64,000 nucleotides of DNA from Chryseobacterium sp. SORGH_AS_0447 (lineage in GTDB: Bacteria > Bacteroidota > Bacteroidia > Flavobacteriales > Weeksellaceae). This document shows positions 3,801-19,733 of this stretch, one piece after another. The stretch spans positions 1,792,501 through 1,856,500 of the forward strand of contig NZ_JAUTAR010000001.1 of the NCBI RefSeq assembly GCF_030818695.1, written 5' to 3'. Under the pieces are notes generated by a model that saw only the letters and a program-made list of their open reading frames with translations, ran no database searches and was not told the DNA's origin. The position numbers were made by a program, and so were the translations under genes. The stretch's first letter is position 1, and each line of letters begins with the position of its first letter.

Positions 3801-4532
3801 GTTATACTCATTAAAAACATAATAGGTATCGATGTTTTGCGAACCGTCGTTCTTACGGATCAAAACTATCTGTCCTCTTCCGTTCTGAAACTGAATAACA
3901 GAATTCCCGTCTTCATCGGTTACCGTATTTTTATACAGTGTTCCTGCCGGATAAAATCCCGAATTGGCAGAAGAAAGCGATACTGAAGAAACCGTATTGG
4001 AAATACCACTCACCGTATTGGTTGAAGTGTTTGTTACAAAAGCTTTAACTTCGTTTCCGGTATTGGTTTCATATTTATATTTCTTTGTTTTTCCCGAACT
4101 CATTTTCCATTCCTCTCCCGGATTCGCTTCCTGCAATACCCTGTCTAAAGGGGAGTTTTCAATTTCCTTCTCCGTAAAAGCATTGGAAACGCCGTAATAG
4201 GAATTGGCAGCGGTTTCATCGTTAATCCCGGTGTGGATAGAAGAGTTCTGGGTGGTGGCAGGAACGGGCAATATGTTTTTTGCCTGTCTTCCGAAGCCGT
4301 CATACGTTACCGGCATGACCAGATCTTTTCCGGTAGCAGTGGCTTTTACATTAATAATCTGTTTGGGTCTTCCCAGACCATCAAAATAGGTAATGGTTTC
4401 CGATTTTTTTGTACAATCCTGATTCAGACAGCCTATAGACTGTACATAATTTTCATTGGATTGTGCAAAAGACATCCCTGCGAGCAATATGCCTAACAAG
4501 GATAATCCTTTTAAGATTAAATATTTTTTCAT
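891..4532 (-). CDS. Rhs-family polymorphic toxin (DUF6443 N-terminus, Rhs core, nuclease-like C-terminus)
   Basis: A 1213-residue secreted protein. Residues 1-23 are a signal peptide ending in SFAQ. A DUF6443-like segment follows (YFDGLGRPKQ near residue 50), then many YD/Rhs repeats (for example YDDQNRLLKHF). The Rhs-associated core ends near residue 993 with GRFFNVDPLSEKY and ENRVIDARELEGLE, the Bacteroidota version of the core boundary. The last 220 residues differ in character. From about residue 1118 they show GQEAHRQIQ, then RPDGTNIIIKPNT and a basic tail, resembling the D...(I)xK core of restriction-endonuclease-fold toxins (Tox-REase type). A nuclease is therefore likely but unproven. 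It starts 8 bp after the upstream Rhs gene and ends 1 bp before the immunity candidate. Rhs shells are known to encapsulate the C-terminal toxin. Confidence 0.88.
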   Translation of the reverse strand: MKKYLILKGLSLLGILLAGMSFAQSNENYVQSIGCLNQDCTKKSETITYFDGLGRPKQIINVKATATGKDLVMPVTYDGFGRQAKNILPVPATTQNSSIHTGINDETAANSYYGVSNAFTEKEIENSPLDRVLQEANPGEEWKMSSGKTKKYKYETNTGNEVKAFVTNTSTNTVSGISNTVSSVSLSSANSGFYPAGTLYKNTVTDEDGNSVIQFQNGRGQIVLIRKNDGSQNIDTYYVFNEYNQQAFIITPKAVKQIEDNNNLITDAILNELCYQYRYDGKDRLVEKRLPGREWEFLVYDKQDRVILAQDGILRTTTNNFGSKGWLFTKYDESGRVVYTGFFSNTATRQAMQSALNNMTANAYNNEKRTTTSFNLQGLDVYYSKQAFPTGSMTLLSVNYYDTYPPEAPPVPQTILGQYTLPQTLDANNDASTNGVLTASYVKNIEDNNWTKTYSYYDSFGRVIATKSTNHLGGYTNTETELDFTGVPLKTNTFHLRKQGETGVAVMERFVYDDQNRLLKHFHQVDSNPEELLAENTYNDLSQIVNKKLGSTSGSAPLQSIDYNYNIRGWLTDINKNQMAAADLGGKLFSYKIKYTNREGIQNPDSSQFPGKNVVPKYNGNIAEVDWRAVESIGANPSTTPKRYGYAYDRLDRLTAGFYQNPQNPYSKENMESLVYDLNGNISSLYRTSVMENGSSTATVIDNLTYDYTGNRATKIKDISGNSTGYEGTAGNTIGYDVNGNMKNMIDKSITAIGYNYLNLPNSLTINLGQLTTDIATKYSADGSKVRKETTKTSVGITGTTITKETTDYLDGFQYFSTTGGNTGGGGSTEMMMASRAFEPQAFSLVDPTGTSTLLTIKTPDLQFFPTAEGFYDYVKNQYIYQYKDLQGNVRLSYARNSAGVLEIVDSNDYYPFGMNHLKTGNAYFGGGSYKNFKMQGQELQETGFYAYKWRNYMPDVGRFFNVDPLSEKYVYQSHYNFSENRVIDARELEGLEAKKVNEVSLPDDPWEFGEMIAGGINSVRAAVANNYGRAYNLVSGDKVRNKYIVDTDGSLTLVTGVPKESLKEKAVNGAFDLGTIALAAAGGPEGMLMSQGGKAPALRGVEEIKSQISKLQSSAKVGQEAHRQIQKVLRTEGARTEVTKVLRNGKVVRKDGVRPDGTNIIIKPNTKSGIKSAKRRENLLNNNGERSETILYDPKDPKYLPGSSTYIGPKRR

Positions 4533-7950: not shown

Positions 7951-9609
7951 TTATTTTTTAATCAATTTGGCATTCGCCGTTTTATCATTAGTCTTCACCA
8001 CCACCAGATACGCCCCCTGAATCAAAGGCTGGGTATTGATCTTGGTGATCTTGTTTTTCGTTTTTACCGTTTCAAGCTTTCTTCCGCCCATATCGTATAC
8101 CGCGATCTCAGCTTCAAATGCTCCTTCTCTCAAGCCCTCAAACCCAAGCTCCACATATACATAATCCGTTACCGGGTTCGGGTAGATCTTAATATCCTGT
8201 TTTTCGATCAGCTGGTCAACCTGTCTGTCGCCCAGCTTCACGATCTTCCAGTTTTCTTTTCCCAGTTCCTCTGCGCTTGTTCCTGCGAGTATGATTGATC
8301 CGTCACGGTTCAGCTTAATATCAGATAACCGTTCCTCTTTTTTTCGGGATTCTCCCTTTACGTGCTTTCTCCACTGCTCATTTCCGTTCTGGTCGAGATA
8401 CAGCATCCAGAAAGTCTCGTCATCATTTTCAATCCTTCCTTCCGCCTGTGTGTAACCGCCCAATAGAATTCCTTTAGACTTCCCATCTCCATCTTCCTGC
8501 TTCCCGGCAATAACGCTCATCCCCATCAGAACATCCCTGTTTTTGAAGTTATAAGATTTCTGCCACTGCTCATTTCCGTTTAAATCAATAGCCACCAACC
8601 ATAAATCGGTTCCTTTTTCAATACCAACGGACTTATTTCCCGATCTTTCCGATCTGGATTCCCCACCGATCAGGTAGCCTGTTGAAGTCAGTGCCAGTGT
8701 TCTTAGATGATCGTCGCCTTTTCCTCCGAAATTCTTTTCCCATTCCACTTTTCCGTCTTTCGAAAGTTTCACGATCCAGTAATCGCCTTCGCCAAAATTG
8801 TTGCTTGTTTTTGGCTGATAGTTGATGGTTTTACTACTTCCAGCCTCTGCCTTCCCGCTTCCTGCCAAAGCCCCGCTTCTGGAATAGATCCCTAATAAGG
8901 CACCTCCATCTTTAGTGGGAATCATTTTTTCCACTTCGTCTACCCCTTTGCCTCCAAATACCAATTGGGATAATTCCTTCCCGTTTTTATCTAACCGTAC
9001 CACCAGAACATCTTTCGAGCCGTAGCCTTTCGGTGAGTTCTGCACATTGCCAACGACAAAGAACCCCATATCGGTGGTCTGGATCACCGCCCGCGCTTCT
9101 TCATCCGCGGCACTGCCTATGGTTTTCTGCCATAGTTCATCGCCAAATTCGTTGATGCGGATCAGCCAGAAATCCGATCCGCCTTTGGAATCGTCTTTTT
9201 TATCCAGTCCTTTTCCGCTATAGGAAATTCCGGCAAGAAGAAATCCTCCTTCCTGAGTGTTAACCGTTGCTGAAAGAAAATCATGGTTTTTCCCTGAGAA
9301 ATATTTTTCCCAGACCTCTTCGCCCTGCTGGTTCAGCTTAACCAGATGGAAATCGTAGCCGTTGTTCTGCTGCGAGGAGGCAGAAGGCAGACCGGAGGTT
9401 GTAGGAGAGCTGCCGCCTGTGATCTTTTGGCTGTTACCCCGAATGCTGCTTCCGGTAATTAAATACTGCTGATCGATGGTCGTGGTGACCTGTGAGAGAA
9501 AGTCCTGCGTAGAAGACCGGATGTCTTTCTGCCAGACTACTTCCTGAGCGGAAGAAAAACCACCCAAGAGTACGCATAGTAGAAATGCGCCTACATAATT
9601 TTTTTTCAT
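7951..9609 (-). CDS. T9SS type A sorting domain protein with propeller-like repeats
   Basis: The ATG at 9607-9609 (MKKNYVGAFLL) is preferred over an upstream TTG because it begins a clean signal peptide ending in SSAQ. The body, about residues 25-460, is built of repeats of roughly 60 residues of the form DxWLVKLDxxGxxxWxKxxGG, suggesting a beta-propeller-like fold. The last 80 residues are a type IX secretion sorting domain: IKIYPNPVTDYVYVEL, then YDMGGRKL, and a final GAYLVVVKT...KLIKK. The protein should be exported by Sec, carried across the outer membrane by T9SS and attached or released there. It is the first gene of the Rhs operon (5-bp gap to the next), so it may be the surface partner of the Rhs proteins; this link is inferred. 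Confidence 0.85.
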   Translation of the reverse strand: MKKNYVGAFLLCVLLGGFSSAQEVVWQKDIRSSTQDFLSQVTTTIDQQYLITGSSIRGNSQKITGGSSPTTSGLPSASSQQNNGYDFHLVKLNQQGEEVWEKYFSGKNHDFLSATVNTQEGGFLLAGISYSGKGLDKKDDSKGGSDFWLIRINEFGDELWQKTIGSAADEEARAVIQTTDMGFFVVGNVQNSPKGYGSKDVLVVRLDKNGKELSQLVFGGKGVDEVEKMIPTKDGGALLGIYSRSGALAGSGKAEAGSSKTINYQPKTSNNFGEGDYWIVKLSKDGKVEWEKNFGGKGDDHLRTLALTSTGYLIGGESRSERSGNKSVGIEKGTDLWLVAIDLNGNEQWQKSYNFKNRDVLMGMSVIAGKQEDGDGKSKGILLGGYTQAEGRIENDDETFWMLYLDQNGNEQWRKHVKGESRKKEERLSDIKLNRDGSIILAGTSAEELGKENWKIVKLGDRQVDQLIEKQDIKIYPNPVTDYVYVELGFEGLREGAFEAEIAVYDMGGRKLETVKTKNKITKINTQPLIQGAYLVVVKTNDKTANAKLIKK

Positions 9610-9888
9610 TGTAAATATCAAATTTTAAGTTACTAATATATTTTTAATTGTGAGTTGTTCGCAATCCGTAAAAACCCCATATTTTGAGTATGGATTTAGC
9701 CAAATTATTCTAGCTTGATCGATTGTTTATTTCCATTTTGCTTGTTTTAAATATTATTTTTTTGTTCCTGGCAGCAAAAATAAATTCGCAGAACGACAGA
9801 AGGTGTCGTATTTTATTGAAATGTATTTCAACTGCAAAAAAATCTTTAGGTGTAATAATAAAGAAAGGCGCAGAGTTGAAGCCAATCA

Positions 9889-10028
9889 GTAACAGAGGCA
9901 CTCGGATGCCCTACAACCAGATGTGACTTACAACCCGCGCCATATAGATGCACGGGCGTAAGCCTATCATTTTCAGGTTGTATAGAAGATTCCGAGTTTT
10001 CTGTTACCTTAATGATAGAAACTTACGC
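9889..10028. other. Structured element with interleaved inverted repeats (possible ncRNA or mobile-element remnant)
   Basis: Fold A: gtaacaga (9889-9896) pairs with tctgttac (10000-10007), ctcgga (9901-9906) with tccgag (9991-9996), tacaacc (9912-9918) with ggttgta (9976-9982), and cttac (9927-9931) with gtaag (9958-9962), with cccg/cggg inside. Fold B: gcgtaag (9956-9962) pairs with cttacgc (10022-10028), and ctatcatt (9964-9971) with aatgatag (10011-10018). The two folds interleave, giving either a pseudoknot or two alternative structures. The region is more GC-rich than its surroundings. I cannot assign it to a known RNA family, and no reverse transcriptase or transposase gene is adjacent. 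Confidence 0.5.
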
Positions 10029-10492
10029 TTGTTTCGTTAAAATTATGTTTCAAATGTAAGTAATATTTCTTAAAATGAAATCACCGTATTTTTACGGTAA
10101 TTTTTGGTTTTAAGTTTAGCCAAACCAATAAAAGTCAAAATAATATTTAAAATTTATATTTGTGATAGTAATATTACTTAAATCTAAAATCAAGCTAGTG
10201 ATTTGGAAAAAATAAATGGCTTTTTAATATTTTTTTATTATAAAATTCTGCGAAATTAGGCATAATTACTCCTTAAATTGACCTCTAGAATTTCAAAAAT
10301 GATTTCATAATAAAAAAAGAAGTTTTGAAGATCAAACTTATAATAGTACAATATCCGTATATTTTATAGGAAAACTATTCTCAGTGTAGGTTCTAAGAAT
10401 ATTTTGAGAATAAGAAATTAAAAATAATATTTTTATGCTAACTGATTTTTTATTTGGCAATAAAGAATAATAGTAAATTATATGAAATTAAC

Positions 10493-10500
10493 TATTTTTG
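10493..10500 (+). promoter_or_regulatory. Candidate -7 element for hsdRMS
   Basis: TATTTTTG fits the Bacteroidota -7 consensus TAnnTTTG and lies 41 bp before the hsdR ATG. No good -33 TTG is seen at the usual spacing, so this is a weak call. Confidence 0.3.
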
Positions 10501-10541
10501 TACATAACTTCCGATAATATAAATTATATAGAAGTAAATAA

Positions 10542-14684
<4,143 letters not shown>

Positions 14685-14685
<1 letters not shown>

Positions 14686-16160
14686 TGGATACGAAGAAAT
14701 TAAGACAAAAAATCCTCGATTTAGCGATACGTGGAAAATTAGTTCCTCAGGACCCAAATGATGAACCTGCTTCTGTACTTATTGAAAAAATACGCGCAGA
14801 AAAAGAACAGTTAATCAAAGAAAAAAAGATTAAGCGAGATAAGAACGAATCATACATTTACTGTTCCGATAAATCATATTACGAGAAGTTCGCAGACGGA
14901 ACCGTGAAATGCATTGATGACCATATACCGTTTGAGATACCGGAGAGTTGGGAGTGGTGTAGGTTGGGAAGTGTAGTTTCTTTAATTTCTGGACAAGATT
15001 TTCCACCAGATAAATACAATTCTAATGAAGACGGAATACCTTATATAATTGGTGCAAGCAATATTTTTGACGGTAAATTACAAATCAATCGTTGGACTAC
15101 AACCCCAAGTGTTTTTGCAGGTAAAGGTGATTTACTGTTAGTATGTAAAGGTGCAGGTGTGGGAAAAATGTGTTTATGTGATTTACCAAAAGCACATATT
15201 GCAAGGCAAATTCAATCTATTAGAGTATATAATAATCACATAAGCATAGAATATATTAAACAAGTTCTTGATTGTAGGATCGAAGATATAACATCTAAAG
15301 CAAATGGTCTAATACCTGGATTAAATAGAGAATTAATTCTTAATTTTTTTATACCAATTCCTCCTGTCGATGAACAAAAAAAAATAAATCAAAATATTAT
15401 ATCGTCTTTTGAGTTGATTAATAGTATCAACAGAAATAAACTTGATTTGTCTAAAATCATTAATCAAGCCAAATCAAAAATCCTAGACCTTGCCATCCGT
15501 GGCAAACTCGTCCCGCAAGACCCAAACGATGAGCCAGCTTCCGTACTGCTTGAGCGTATAAAAGCAGAGCATCCTGAAAGCAAAAAGAAGGCTAAATACA
15601 CAAGGGATAACTCACATTATCCCTTTGAGATCCCAAAATCTTGGGAATGGTCAACCATTGGAGAGATATCACAACATAACACAGGTAAAACTCTGCATAA
15701 AGGTCGGAATTCTGGTACTCCATATCAATACATTACTACTTCAAATCTTTATTGGGATTCTTTTGTATTAGACAATCTGAAAGAAATGCCTTTTGAAGAG
15801 AGAGAGTTAGATAAATTTTCTGCGATTAAAGGAGATCTCTTAATTTGCGAAGGTGGAGATGGTGGACGTTCTGCTATATGGACTGAAGAGTACGCTATTT
15901 GTTTTCAAAATCATATTCATAGAGTTAGACCATTTTGTGATATAAAATCAAAGTATATCTATTTTTTTATGCTTTATTCTTCATTAAAAGGAAGTATTAA
16001 TGATTACAAAAAAGGAATAGGAATTCAAAGCCTATCAAGTAGCTCATTAGCTTCTATTAGGTTGTCATTACCTCCAATAGAAGAACAAAAACGAATCGTT
16101 AAAAAAATTGAAGACATTTTCGCTTCACTTAATGAAATAGCAAATTCAATTAAAGCGTAA
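14685..16160 (+). CDS. hsdS: Type I specificity subunit, expressed copy of a shuffling locus
   Basis: A 491-residue DNA recognition subunit with two target recognition domains. TRD1 spans about residues 85-235 and TRD2 about 310-475. Each is followed by a helical conserved region (PPVDEQKKI, PPIEEQKRI). Each TRD is preceded by a copy of KILDLAIRGKLVPQDPNDEP (near residues 9 and 265), the internal repeat of the HsdS half-subunits. It starts inside the hsdM stop. Two stretches, 14869-14962 and 15567-15620, recur in perfect inverted form in the silent copy at 17577-18961. The TRDs now here can therefore be exchanged by inversion, which would change the methylated sequence. The stop lies in the stem of a hairpin. 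Confidence 0.95.
14869..14962 (+). repeat. Inverted repeat 1, left arm (5' of TRD1)
   Basis: These 94 bp, starting ataaatcat and ending ggtgtag, are identical to the reverse complement of 18868-18961. They encode SYYEKFADG through ESWEWCR in the expressed hsdS, just before TRD1 diverges. A perfect repeat of this length in coding DNA is consistent with ongoing recombination. Confidence 0.93.
15283..15339 (+). repeat. Inverted repeat 3, left arm (inside TRD1)
   Basis: 26 identical bases (15283-15308) and 21 identical bases (15319-15339) match the reverse complement of 18491-18516 and 18460-18480. The ten bases between them differ completely but are equal in length. In the expressed gene this block is in frame (TSKANGLIPGLNRELI). 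Confidence 0.85.
15567..15620 (+). repeat. Inverted repeat 2, left arm (5' of TRD2)
   Basis: 54 bp, from gagcatcctg to ctcacattat, identical to the reverse complement of 18129-18182. It encodes EHPESKKKAKYTRDNSHY in the central conserved region. Flanking similarity (with a further perfect 32-bp block) extends the homologous region upstream to about 15475. Confidence 0.92.
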
Positions 16161-16176
16161 GCCTAAAAACTTACGC
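16155..16176 (+). terminator. Hairpin at the 3' end of hsdS
   Basis: gcgtaag (16155-16161) and cttacgc (16170-16176) form a 7-bp stem with an 8-base loop, followed by an AT-rich tract with a TTTTATT stretch. The hsdS stop codon lies in the left stem. The same two 10-mers (gcgtaagcct and aaacttacgc) occur at 9956-10028. Confidence 0.5.
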
Positions 16177-16190
16177 CTTAAATTTTATTG

Positions 16191-16994
16191 TTACCAATTC
16201 ACAATTTTGTCAACAATGGCTTGTTGTTCACTTGCGGTACGGCGAAGATAAATTCTGGTCGTTTCTATGCTTTCGTGTCCCATAAGGTCAGCAAGCAGTG
16301 CTATGTCATTAAATCTATCTAAAAAGTTTTTGGCAAATCGATGGCGAAAAGAATGTGGATATACTACATTTACATTCAAACCATATTTTGAAGCAAAATG
16401 TTTCAACTGTTGAGATATTCCACGGGTTGTAATTCTTTCTCCAAAACGATTGAGAAATATATATCCGGATTTTATACTTTTTGTTTCTAACCATTTGATA
16501 GCTTCTGCACGAAGATTTTTAGGTATATATAAACGTCGGATTTTCCCTCCTTTTGTGTACATATCAAGATGTCCTATTTGAACGTGTTCTGCTTTTATCT
16601 GCAACAATTCACTGACCCGAGCTCCGGTTGCAGTTAAAAACCAAACAACAAAATACCACTCAATGTTTCCATCAGCTTTTAACTTTGTTTTGAAAAACTT
16701 GTAATCTGCATCACTAATGACGTTTTCGAGAAAATTTTTCTGTTGAACCTTAACAAATTTGAGCTTCAACCTATCTTTTTTGATAAATTCTAAATACTTG
16801 TTCATTGCTTGCAAACGCAGATTCACTGTTTGTGGTTTAAAATGTTCGATTAGAAATCCTTTGTAAGCCAAAAGGTTTTCTTTGTTTACTGCCCCATATT
16901 GGGTAAGAAAGTGATTTACCGTCCATACGTACGACGTAATTGTGTTTTCTGCCAAGTCATTTTTACTTAGTGATTTTTTAAAGTCTGTTACCAT
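16191..16994 (-). CDS. Tyrosine recombinase, probable hsdS invertase
   Basis: A 267-residue phage-integrase family protein. The N-terminal SAM-like core-binding domain spans about 1-90 and the catalytic domain 95-267. The catalytic set is complete: R126 (GARVSELL), a lysine in TKGGKIRR (about 148-151), H214xxR217 (HSFRHRF), H240 (MGHESIETT) and nucleophile Y249 (RIYL). It is a compact XerC/D-like enzyme without an arm-binding extension, as in recombinases that invert hsdS cassettes in other bacteria. It lies between the expressed hsdS and the silent cassettes, transcribed towards hsdS. Its location inside the inverted repeats means its own orientation would flip with inversion. The role as invertase is inferred from context. 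Confidence 0.93.
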   Translation of the reverse strand: MVTDFKKSLSKNDLAENTITSYVWTVNHFLTQYGAVNKENLLAYKGFLIEHFKPQTVNLRLQAMNKYLEFIKKDRLKLKFVKVQQKNFLENVISDADYKFFKTKLKADGNIEWYFVVWFLTATGARVSELLQIKAEHVQIGHLDMYTKGGKIRRLYIPKNLRAEAIKWLETKSIKSGYIFLNRFGERITTRGISQQLKHFASKYGLNVNVVYPHSFRHRFAKNFLDRFNDIALLADLMGHESIETTRIYLRRTASEQQAIVDKIVNW

Positions 16995-17041
16995 TATTCT
17001 ATTAATTTTTTAAAATAAGACAACAAATTTATCTTGGCTAT

Positions 17042-17062
17042 CTCACATTATCAGAACTTGCC
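17042..17062 (+). repeat. Short inverted repeat at the start of the silent TRD2 cassettes
   Basis: 21 bp starting ctcacattatcag are identical to the reverse complement of 18118-18138. The first 10 bases are shared with 15611-15620 of the expressed hsdS. Homology between cassettes stops at its end, so it marks the left edge of the TRD2 module and may contain the recombinase crossover site. Confidence 0.75.
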
Positions 17063-17582
17063 TCAAGGATGGACAGAATGCACATTAGAAAGTATCGGCT
17101 CTTGGTCTTCTGGAGCAACTCCAAATCGCTCAAATAAAATGTATTATAAAAACGGAACGATTAGTTGGTTGAAAACTGGCGACCTAAATGATAGCTATAT
17201 TGATTATATACCAGAGAAGATAACCGACTTAGCCCTTAAAGAATGCTCAGTTAGGTTAAATCCAAAAAATAGCGTATTGATTGCAATGTATGGCGCAACT
17301 ATTGGGAAGATTGGTATTCTAAATATACCAGCTGCTACAAATCAAGCTTGTTGTACCTGCATGACATATTCAGGTATTTATAATAAATTTCTTTTTTATC
17401 TTTTGATGGCTAAGAAGAAAATTTTGCAAATGAAGGCAGAAGGCGGGGCACAACCCAATATTTCAAAGGAGAAAATTACTAATTTTCCTATTCTATTACC
17501 TCCAAGTCAAGAACAAATTCGAATAGTCCAAGCCATTGAAAACTTATTTCAACGATTAGATAACATAGCAGCAGAATTATAA
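17042..17582 (+). pseudogene. Silent hsdS TRD2 cassette (plus strand)
   Basis: This encodes a single target recognition domain (SHYQNLPQGWTECTLESIG to IENLFQRLDNIAAEL, about 180 residues) with the conserved C-terminal helix (PPSQEQIRIV). The frame opens with a TTG at 17034, in the leader of the divergent recombinase, so there is no convincing start and it is probably not translated on its own. It begins at the 21-bp repeat shared with 18118-18138 and joins the opposite silent copy at a perfect 46-bp palindrome. It is best read as a donor of an alternative TRD2 for hsdS. It differs from the expressed TRD2 throughout. Confidence 0.85.
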
Positions 17583-17602
17583 TTCTGCTGCTATGTTATC
17601 TA
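17557..17602. repeat. Perfect 46-bp palindrome joining two silent cassettes
   Basis: The sequence is its own reverse complement, centred between 17579 and 17580, with 23-bp arms. Each arm encodes the same C-terminal peptide (LDNIAAEL) for the cassette on its strand, so the two silent genes end tail to tail with overlapping stops. It could terminate transcription in both directions and could act as a recombination arm. Confidence 0.9.
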
Positions 17603-18117
17603 GTACCTCAAAAAGTTGATCAATCTTTGAAACAATTTCATTCTGTTCTTTTAAAGAACAGATAGGAACATAGGTATTACGAATATTTTCTAAATGTAAA
17701 TTTGGAACACCTATACCTTTAAGGTTTGCTTTGAATTGTTCTTGAACAAATAAAGATGACATAATATGTCGCAAATAGTATGGGTTGATTTTATTTTGGA
17801 AAGTACGAAGTAATGCCAAACTCACATATATGTCAAAAATATAATCACAATCAACAACTGCTGAAAAACCTGTTGTCCCATTTTTAGCAAGTAGGATATC
17901 GCCTTTCTGAGGAGCCAATCGTGCATATAATTGTTTGTGAAGAAACTCTGGAATGTACATTACATTTTCCCAATCAATTTTACCTGAGGTTACATTTTTT
18001 GATGATAGAAAAATATAACCTTCATCAGAATACGTTGGTGTTTGATGTGTCCCATCTGTTATGATGGAACAAATATCTACTAACTTGCACCAACTCCAAT
18101 TTTCAGGTATCTCAAAG

Positions 18118-18138
18118 GGCAAGTTCTGATAATGTGAG
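18118..18138 (-). repeat. Inverted partner of the 21-bp TRD2-edge repeat
   Basis: Reverse complement of 17042-17062, overlapping the end of inverted repeat 2. Inversion between this site and 17042-17062 would swap the positions of the two silent TRD2 cassettes around the central palindrome. Confidence 0.75.
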
Positions 18139-18182
18139 TTATCCCTTGTGTATTTAGCCTTCTTTTTGCTTTCAGGATGCTC
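18129..18182 (-). repeat. Inverted repeat 2, right arm
   Basis: Perfect 54-bp inverted partner of 15567-15620, located just 5' of the TRD2 of the silent minus-strand copy. Recombination here would exchange TRD2 and invert about 2.6 kb. Confidence 0.92.
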
Positions 18183-18459
18183 CGATTTTATGCGTTCAAG
18201 CAGTACGGAAGCTGGCTCATCGTTTGGATCCTGAGGAACAAGTTTGCCACGAATGGCAAGGTCGAGGATTTTGGATTTTGTTTTTTGTATATAAGAAGAT
18301 AAATGACTCTCATCATTCACAATGCCATCAACAATCAAAAATAATTTTGATATACTTGAGAGAATTTTAGATATTTCTTCTAGGGGTGGAAGTGCAATAA
18401 GATAATCTCCTATAATATCTTTTCCGACACGTTGCTGTCCTACGGCTCCAGAAAAATTT

Positions 18460-18516
18460 GAATTAATTCTCTATTTAATCTTCAATTTGCACCATTTGCT
18501 TTAGATGTTATATCTT
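18460..18516 (-). repeat. Inverted repeat 3, right arm, out of frame
   Basis: Partner of 15283-15339, with a 10-bp replaced centre at 18481-18490. In the silent copy this block is read one frame off and introduces a TAA at 18501-18503, so the silent TRD1 looks like a mosaic of unrelated TRD pieces. Confidence 0.8.
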
Positions 18517-18867
18517 ATCCCATTTGAAATAAAGTTTTCCGTCTTTGATACGTATAAGGCATATTCTGAAATAATAGGAAAAATAATGGGGCGAAATATG
18601 TGTAATTCTGTAGTTCCTGCACCATAATTATTATACAAGTTTTTAAATACTACAGATTTTCTATTTTCAAAACAAGGTGTAATTTTAGCTATACCCAGAT
18701 CATTGTTTTGAAAATGTGTAAATCCTAATCTTATGTCTCTCCATTGTCGTCTATCAAATTTAACTTCATTTGCATATCCATCCTTTATATAGGCCATAGG
18801 AACAAAAGAAACTTCAACATCTTCTTCTATTGTGTTTTTGGGATTAATTTGGAAAAGATTTCTCCAT

Positions 18868-18961
18868 CTACACCACTCCCAACTCTCCGGTATCTCAAAC
18901 GGTATATGGTCATCAATGCATTTCACGGTTCCGTCTGCGAACTTCTCGTAATATGATTTAT
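18868..18961 (-). repeat. Inverted repeat 1, right arm
   Basis: Perfect 94-bp inverted partner of 14869-14962. Homology stops abruptly at 18961, where the silent copy begins without the hsdS N-terminus or a start codon. Inversion between the arms would flip about 4.1 kb including the recombinase gene. Confidence 0.93.
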
Positions 18962-19733
18962 GGATTGTAATCTTAAAATATAAGTAATTGATTTAGAGGA
19001 ATTTAATATTGTTTCACTTTTTAATAATTAAAAATATTTAAATGCTGGATAATTATATAAATATCATTATAGCAAAAAATATTAAATTTATAAAGTGACT
19101 TAAAAAGTAATCAAATGTTACAATACTTAGTACGTACTCTTTTATGTACTTCTTTTGTACACCTTAATCTTTATAATACCTTCTAAATAAAGTTGTTTCT
19201 ACTTTCTGCATCGGCAAGTAGTTTCGCAAACTAAAATTAATCAAAATAAATCATGTAATATCATTGATTATTAGGGTGTTATAATATAACATAGCAGTGG
19301 CAATTGCATGTAGTTTGATCTATTTTGTCATTATTTATCCCTCAAAGTTGTAATATTTTATTTTTTGTAACGTGCCGGGAAAACTTTTATTCTATAACAA
19401 AGGGTATCGAGGTTCAGTATTTATTCCTTTTAATTACCAATAACATCGATTAGACTTGATTATTGCTTTAAATTATTGGCTTTGTTATAAATTTCGCTGT
19501 TACTCTCCTTAAGGAAATTTAAATAAGTAGTTTACTCTTATATATATTATTGTTCAGAATTTTAAAAACTTTTTATGGTCTGTCAAAGCAATTTTATCAA
19601 GCTTACTTTATCCAGAGGGTGAATTTATTTGAAGATAACCCTGATCTCTGAAACGAAGACGTGATCTTCGTAAAAAAATTATAGTATCCGTCATGATAAA
19701 TCCTTAAGTTTATGATGATAAATTACATGACAC
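18962..19733. other. AT-rich region after the restriction island
   Basis: About 770 bp with many stops in all frames; no gene, repeat or structured RNA was recognised. The hsdS-related sequence ends sharply at 18961. Confidence 0.6.

Follow-up and report, generated by a model that had tools for sequence, protein, structure and literature searches.

A locus for a type I restriction-modification (R-M) system in a 64,000-nucleotide stretch of the genome of Chryseobacterium sp. SORGH_AS_0447 (contig NZ_JAUTAR010000001.1, positions 1,792,501 to 1,856,500 of the forward strand; hereafter the window) is very probably an inverting system run by a single PsrA-family tyrosine recombinase, with a candidate operator at hsdR. 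The locus consists of hsdR, hsdM, hsdS and silent hsdS sequence; inverted repeats ahead of the target recognition domains (TRDs) of HsdS, and between them, link hsdS to the silent sequence (Table 1). Recombinase-type sites occur in it with two spacings, and on balance we favor the view that a PsrA-family invertase also regulates its own R-M operon, a spacing of 6 bp marking a crossover site and one of 7 bp a bound, non-recombining operator. This use of two spacings is the part that we put forward, provisionally, as new: in the partial texts of PMC7096588, PMC11709252, PMC12255303 and PMC6265443 and in the titles and abstract openings screened we found no mention of a recombinase-type site at an hsdR promoter.

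An earlier reading of the stretch, made from the sequence only, had recognized a tyrosine recombinase with a complete catalytic set, and the residues are indeed in place (R126, K148/K151, H214, R217, H240 and Y249) in a protein that matches the Pfam family Phage_integrase at 8e-24. Its closest solved structure is that of a XerC-like recombinase (PDB ID: 4a8e, E 1.6e-19), and in a search of plasmids residues 2-267 were 65.4% identical to an annotated PsrA (WP_000651186.1). The complete catalytic set and this full-length similarity place the protein in the PsrA family, named for the hsdS invertase of the pneumococcus (PMC4948785, PMC7096588), so the comparison with SpnIII made in the sequence-only reading was apt. 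Given the 65% identity, the locus is of a known kind, the inverting type I R-M system. PADLOC assigned the recombinase to no family. For comparison we used the best 80 of 124 loci with a recombinase relative (81 with the window), mostly from Bacteroidota and also from Treponema, Fibrobacter and Clostridia.

A dif-like site of 28 bp, composed of two 11-bp arms near ACTTCnGATAA and a 6-bp spacer, stands before every TRD cassette. The core is common to the inverted repeats of related loci, and a loose form of it occurs 314 times near recombinases versus 143 times in shuffled sequence. Within the own genome, the core of S2/S2' (at most one mismatch) and that of S1/S1' (at most two) were found nowhere else. 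A further copy of the site, with its arms 7 bp apart, lies at 10507-10535; it is palindromic and fills nearly the whole gap between the promoter-like element and the ATG at 10542. It is identical at 29 of 29 positions in C. arachidis (locus L005) and at 28 of 29 in locus L006, where the 100 nucleotides (nt) upstream are only 64% and 56% identical, respectively. For recombinase arms with one extra base pair between them, placed at the likely start of the R-M transcript, the most plausible role is that of an operator bound by the recombinase.

The two spacings were found in different places. A two-arm scan, run at a stricter threshold below which the window's own 10507-10535 site scores, gave 44 sites at spacing 6, one at 7 and five at others inside the cassettes; outside the cassettes it gave 12 at spacing 7 versus eight spread over the remaining spacings between 2 and 13. 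In shuffled loci (3.13 Mb) it gave 27 sites altogether, one of them at spacing 7. Regions upstream of hsdR were then scored separately (at least 15 of 20), excluding those with the 5' end cut off; none came from L137 (no hsd match) or from L138, L139, L142 and L088 (no usable start). The spacing-7 site was found in 18 of 27 regions of the first set, 12 of 19 fetched later and two of eight entered as controls, and no region had another spacing as its best, ties being given to 7. Linkage was re-assigned after the run by contig coordinates: the controls L119 and L120 are the linked hsdR of L077 and L083, whereas L110, L111 and L116 are not linked genes, and L135, whose contig ends before any recombinase, was taken as linked on the strength of its crossover sites alone. 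With linkage so settled, the site stands before 32 of 45 recombinase-linked hsdR genes, in several phyla, versus none of nine unlinked hsdR-like ones. Shuffling of 46 hsdR upstream regions gives an expectation of 0.075 at spacing 7, the same search upstream of hsdM found 1/46, and an earlier hsdR scan with another start estimate had found 14/26. Two of the linked genes lie on plasmids and encode a distant HsdR (27%): one from Segatella (L140; site at 1374-1402, hsdR at 1402) and one from Ruminococcus albus (L141; site at 3976-4004, hsdR at 4030), the latter with a TATAAT box just before the site. An element matching TAnnTTTG ends at most 32 nt upstream of the spacing-7 site in 15 of the 32 cases.

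The palindrome, which spans nearly all of the stretch from promoter to ATG, would also suit another regulator or an RNA hairpin in the 5' leader, and a helix-turn-helix (HTH) gene lies beside the site in a few loci (annotated in L140; seen by eye from the DNA in L143). The hairpin was rejected, as variable arm positions pair in 43 of 124 cases, no more than the 51.7 of shuffled arms, in a test on 31 distinct operators of the 32. Against a separate regulator, we recognized no gene for one by eye among the open reading frames (ORFs) of at least 70 amino acids (aa) in the window's locus; moreover, the crossover sites have the same arms (arm composition was taken from score-chosen sites and is partly circular), and the site tracks linkage to the recombinase. 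We thus regard this explanation as unlikely, although it deserves to be kept in view.

Several points nevertheless weigh against an operator of the recombinase. We infer binding to the 7-spaced site from arm similarity alone. Thirteen of the 45 linked regions are without the site at threshold (L037, L039, L047, L050, L052, L053, L061, L062, L063, L105, L106, L136 and L143, the last, from E. faecalis, with a 29-bp variant that bears one inserted base, precedes an apparent HTH gene ahead of hsdR and was not counted as a match), and some linked loci are close relatives, so the 32 are not 32 independent events. The scoring of ties as 7 touches one known case, L028 (4 versus 7). Finally, an exact-pattern scan of 395 genomes of the class gave matches in four (four places), with none of the three inspected lying beside hsdR, and a backwards control pattern matched in two genomes. 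The pattern scan also turned up, in an unrelated genome (L131, G737), a 7-spaced site that is perfectly palindromic; nearby ORFs resemble, by eye, an HTH gene and a nuclease.

If the operator reading is right, and it is a less certain proposal than inversion, the recombinase would also bind the 7-spaced copy where the hsdRMS transcript probably begins. Tyrosine recombinases exchange strands less well when the length of the spacer is altered; the changed spacing and the unmatched spacer should together prevent crossover at 10507-10535. Such an operator would hold down or time the R-M operon when the recombinase is abundant, and could possibly soften self-restriction after a switch. An auto-regulatory site at the promoter of the recombinase itself was sought and rejected (8/75 upstream regions score at least 15, with mixed spacings and no common pattern). 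TAnnTTTG occurs at -60 to -10 of the recombinase in 10 of 78 loci versus 4% of shuffles.

As for inversion, the recombinase is proposed to pair two inverted sites with the same spacer and to flip the DNA between them. Inversion at S2/S2' would exchange TRD2a for TRD2b, inversion at C/S2' followed by S2/S2' would bring in TRD2c, and inversion at S1/S1' would bring in the broken TRD1b. Simulated inversion gave eight arrangements and four HsdS products. Three are full-length (491, 495 and 488 aa), all with TRD1a, and would correspond to three specificities; the fourth, a truncated HsdS of 214 aa arising in four of the eight arrangements because the TRD1b insert carries two stops, would be an OFF-like state in which the system is probably switched off. 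The prediction of at least three TRD2 choices in the sequence-only reading is therefore supported, the third being reached by two successive inversions, but the two TRD1 choices that it also proposed are not supported, TRD1b being broken in this strain. The 57-bp TRD1b insert is absent in C. arachidis.

The repeats on which these inversions would act are exact. The 94-bp inverted repeat (14869-14962/18868-18961) lies just where the sequence-only reading placed it; a second one, given there as 54 bp, is real and perfect and measures 55 bp (15567-15621/18128-18182). Both are far beyond chance within a few kb. A third, of 21 bp (17042-17062/18118-18138), connects the two silent TRD2 cassettes and, like the site before hsdR, adds to what had been noticed; on a rough estimate it is very unlikely to have arisen by chance. 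The silent cassettes proved to lie on opposite strands, as proposed, and are placed tail to tail; the palindrome at which they meet (17557-17602) folds as an RNA hairpin of -36.6 kcal/mol (z -9.4) and is perhaps a two-way terminator.

Four observations weigh against the inversion reading. Site C has a weak left arm (ATCTTGGCTAT), which may make TRD2c slow to reach; S2 and C point the same way, so that the recombinase could be excised; the breakage of TRD1b hints that the TRD1 flip has been little used lately; and all alternative arrangements come from other species, none from within this strain. A locked relic, with its switching in the past, would account for both the broken TRD1b and the degenerate arm of site C. 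In that case, however, one would not look for an intact recombinase identical in protein sequence to the C. arachidis copy, nor for partner repeats that are letter-perfect over 94 and 55 bp, as expected after recent exchange, and we consider a relic improbable.

The spacers indicate which sites would recombine. Sites were classed by the frame that follows, 380-520 codons for TRD1 and 155-215 codons for TRD2, and both classes are present in 50 of the 81 loci. The spacer letters of partner sites are identical at 190 of 192 positions for TRD1 (32 pairs) and at 178 of 180 for TRD2 (30 pairs), figures that exclude seven pairs with five hits judged spurious (in L017, L020, L025, L040 and L062) and recognized because at least four of the six spacer positions disagreed, so that dropping them favors identity; with no pairs dropped, the spacers are identical in 31/36 TRD1 and 29/33 TRD2 pairs versus 1/129 between-class pairs. 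Among 18 diverged partner pairs, spacer identity is 98% and that of the flanks.25-.37. When TRD1 and TRD2 sites of one locus are compared, the arms are alike (GATAA.82, TTAT.90), whereas spacer identity is.46, and 1% at the first base; the two spacers differ in 49 of 50 loci. In the window, the mismatch between ATCATA and CTCACA should bar TRD1 pieces from TRD2 places. The sole locus with one spacer (CCCACA) in both classes, L036, could mix its TRD positions. Selection for a difference between the classes is suggestive only and was not retained: the first spacer base is the same in both classes in one of 50 loci versus 5.8 expected (P 0.0027), but among 31 distinct combinations in one versus 3.5 expected (P 0.08), and over the whole spacer the difference is not above that of permuted pairs (3.16 versus 3.41 mismatches).

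Comparison with related genomes, which the sequence-only reading had suggested as a check, revealed four locus pairs that are natural recombinants between species, with crossover intervals of 13-40 bp whose common part is site positions 12-22, including the spacer. In C. arachidis the window's TRD2c stands at S2' (98% over 460 bp) behind the left arm proper to position S2', and position C keeps its own left arm and carries a different TRD. A clean reciprocal S2'/C inversion separates L020 from L030 and L035 from L037, and L033 and L037 differ by a one-sided swap. L006 has in its expression position the TRD1b that both the window and C. arachidis carry as a silent cassette (81.7% identity over 322 bp and 93.5% over 92 bp). 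Among 47 loci with an HsdM match, hsdM lies to the right of the recombinase in 26 and to the left in 21, always toward the cassettes, as predicted by repeated inversion of the segment that bears the recombinase; all eight of the most divergent HsdM matches (31-34% identity) belong to the left-sided group.

If the inversions came from ordinary RecA-type homologous recombination, or another kind of exchange between long repeats, with the recombinase incidental, the window would offer long repeats for it (94 and 55 bp). Findings in the pneumococcus also speak for it, and to that extent against our reading: without psrA, inversion at inverted repeat IR1 was lost but inversions at IR2 and IR3 persisted (PMC4948785, 2016), and the title of a 2019 paper claims that spnIII recombines without the help of any known site-specific recombinase of the pneumococcus (PMC6620402). 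On the other hand, PsrA is reported to invert DNA of IR1, IR2 and IR3 in vitro, and inversion at IR2/IR3 reportedly drops strongly in psrA mutants and depends on IR1-like sequences (PMC7096588, 2020); published accounts disagree on whether all inversions in the pneumococcus are the work of PsrA. In loci related to the window's, moreover, exact identity between partner repeats can extend over as little as 20-27 bp (L006, L012, L014 and L021), identity in diverged pairs is confined to the site, and the crossover intervals fall at the site, which makes incidental recombination very improbable in our view. The proposal of recombinase-driven hsdS inversion in the sequence-only reading is thus strongly supported by family membership, the 28-bp sites, the natural recombinants and the two-sided position of hsdM, and the sites and recombinants lend support to the recombinase as the probable catalyst of inversion at the hsdS repeats. 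It is scarcely credible that the shared arms merely reflect the conserved HsdS protein sequence DNSHYE, for although every TRD has the site at its beginning, within coding sequence, the left arms of silent-cassette sites, which are outside the hsdS frame, keep T at -3 (86%) and A at -2 (89%; 66 sites in 46 loci, located solely by the spacer and the next four bases), which implies a constraint on DNA and not on protein alone, and the arms recur upstream of hsdR, outside hsdS.

Table 1. Features of the hsd locus (positions in the window)
Feature	Position	Strand	Remarks
Promoter-like element of hsdRMS, TATTTTTG	10493..10500	+	matches the Bacteroidota -7 consensus TAnnTTTG
Operator-like copy of the recombinase site, ACTTCCGATAA-TATAAAT-TATATAGAAGT	10507..10535	+	arms 7 bp apart; directly before hsdR
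hsdR, type I restriction subunit	10542..13235	+	897 aa
hsdM, N6-adenine methyltransferase subunit	13249..14685	+	478 aa
hsdS, expression position	14685..16160	+	491 aa; TRD1a and TRD2a; directly after hsdM
Crossover site S1, TRD1 class	14862..14889	+	spacer ATCATA at 14873-14878
Crossover site S2, TRD2 class	15600..15627	+	spacer CTCACA at 15611-15616
PsrA-family tyrosine recombinase	16191..16994	-	267 aa; inside both invertible segments; convergent to hsdS
Promoter-like element of the recombinase, TAAATTTG	17024..17031	-	abuts site C
Crossover site C, TRD2 class	17031..17058	+	spacer CTCACA at 17042-17047; left arm degenerate
Silent TRD2c half-cassette	17034..17582	+	
Perfect palindrome, 46 bp	17557..17602		silent cassettes meet tail to tail; stop codons overlap
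Silent 3' half of hsdS with TRD2b	17577..18338	-	
Crossover site S2', TRD2 class	18122..18149	-	spacer CTCACA at 18133-18138
Silent TRD1b, broken	18339..18961	-	with TRD2b forms a silent hsdS without 5' end
57-bp insert in TRD1b	about 18460..18516	-	similar to part of TRD1a; disrupts TRD1b with two in-frame stops
Crossover site S1', TRD1 class	18941..18968	-	spacer ATCATA at 18952-18957; left arm outside the hsdS frame

Expression of hsdS is suggested by its position behind hsdRM, and the TAnnTTTG consensus used for the promoter-like element is cited for Bacteroides fragilis (PMC3090145). A sigma-70 promoter scan was uninformative (25 found versus 25.1 expected). The own genome, complete at 4.37 Mb, has four Methylase_S matches, all within the hsd locus. 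Homology to L005 and L006 extends over about 10483-18975; the DNA beyond does not align, which suggests that the block moves as a unit. A search with both flanks in 59 genomes each found no clean empty site: the left flank is a multi-copy gene family, and the right flank has partial matches in six other genomes, the best covering 535 of 1811 bp at 68%. The left neighbor (7951-9621) encodes a large protein of a multi-copy family, with nine own-genome matches to 8600-10480, self included.

At E ≤1e-30 the recombinase was found in 2 of 173 genomes of the genus, and at E ≤1e-60 in 5 of 320 genomes of the family and 2 of 395 sampled genomes of the order, the own genome being included each time. An HsdS-like match lies near the recombinase in 67 of the 81 loci, and seven of the other 14 are cut by contig ends. 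Four Bacteroides loci (L018, L022, L029 and L034) have a close recombinase relative with no HsdS-like match within 4-5.5 kb; in L018, the one of these for which ORFs were listed, the relative adjoins unrelated genes. In locus L055 a copy of the 28-bp site that is almost a perfect palindrome (ACTTCTGATAA-TAGGCA-TTATAAGAAGT, L055:8873-8900) lies about 70 nt past the stop of a recombinase without hsdS, and a second copy was not found in that locus.

Among known systems, Spn556II/SpnD39III (cod) of Streptococcus pneumoniae also combines hsdR, hsdM, hsdS, silent hsdS copies and a PsrA-family recombinase, and a DNase I footprint of PsrA protects 28 nt (551835-551808; PMC7096588). The window's locus is unlike cod as described in its two letter-level spacer classes and its one broken TRD1, and perhaps in the 7-spaced copy at the hsdR promoter. 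The hsdS shufflon BB of B. fragilis NCTC 9343 is likewise a Bacteroidota type I locus with an adjacent tyrosine integrase, and it has eight possible specificities (PMC3090145); its 38-bp repeat (PMC3090145), however, has no match in the window at up to three mismatches, and its best match in 10-20 kb is no better than in shuffles. SpnIV/tvr resembles the window's locus in recombinase-driven hsdS shuffling by TvrR, but there DNA is excised and reintegrated at direct repeats, a process held in check by tvrAT and an attenuator (PMC6265443). The window's long repeats are inverted (S2 and C being direct), and among the locus ORFs of at least 70 aa no gene pair was found besides the recombinase and the cassettes. 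RptR, a repressor of type I R-M islands, also has its site at the operon promoter (PMC12255303); it differs in being a dedicated small helical repressor acting at TAGCTA sites, neither an invertase nor dependent on the site of one.

The rule of the 6-bp spacer shows a way for a single enzyme to shuffle at two TRD positions and yet keep their pieces apart, and it predicts recombining site pairs from sequence. A change of R-M specificity puts a cell at risk of cutting its own unmethylated DNA, and we know of no account of how inverting type I systems avoid this. The site at the hsdR promoter leads to a direct hypothesis, that the invertase damps the operon while switching it. If this is true, R-M loci in several phyla would couple the switching of specificity to the level at which restriction is expressed.

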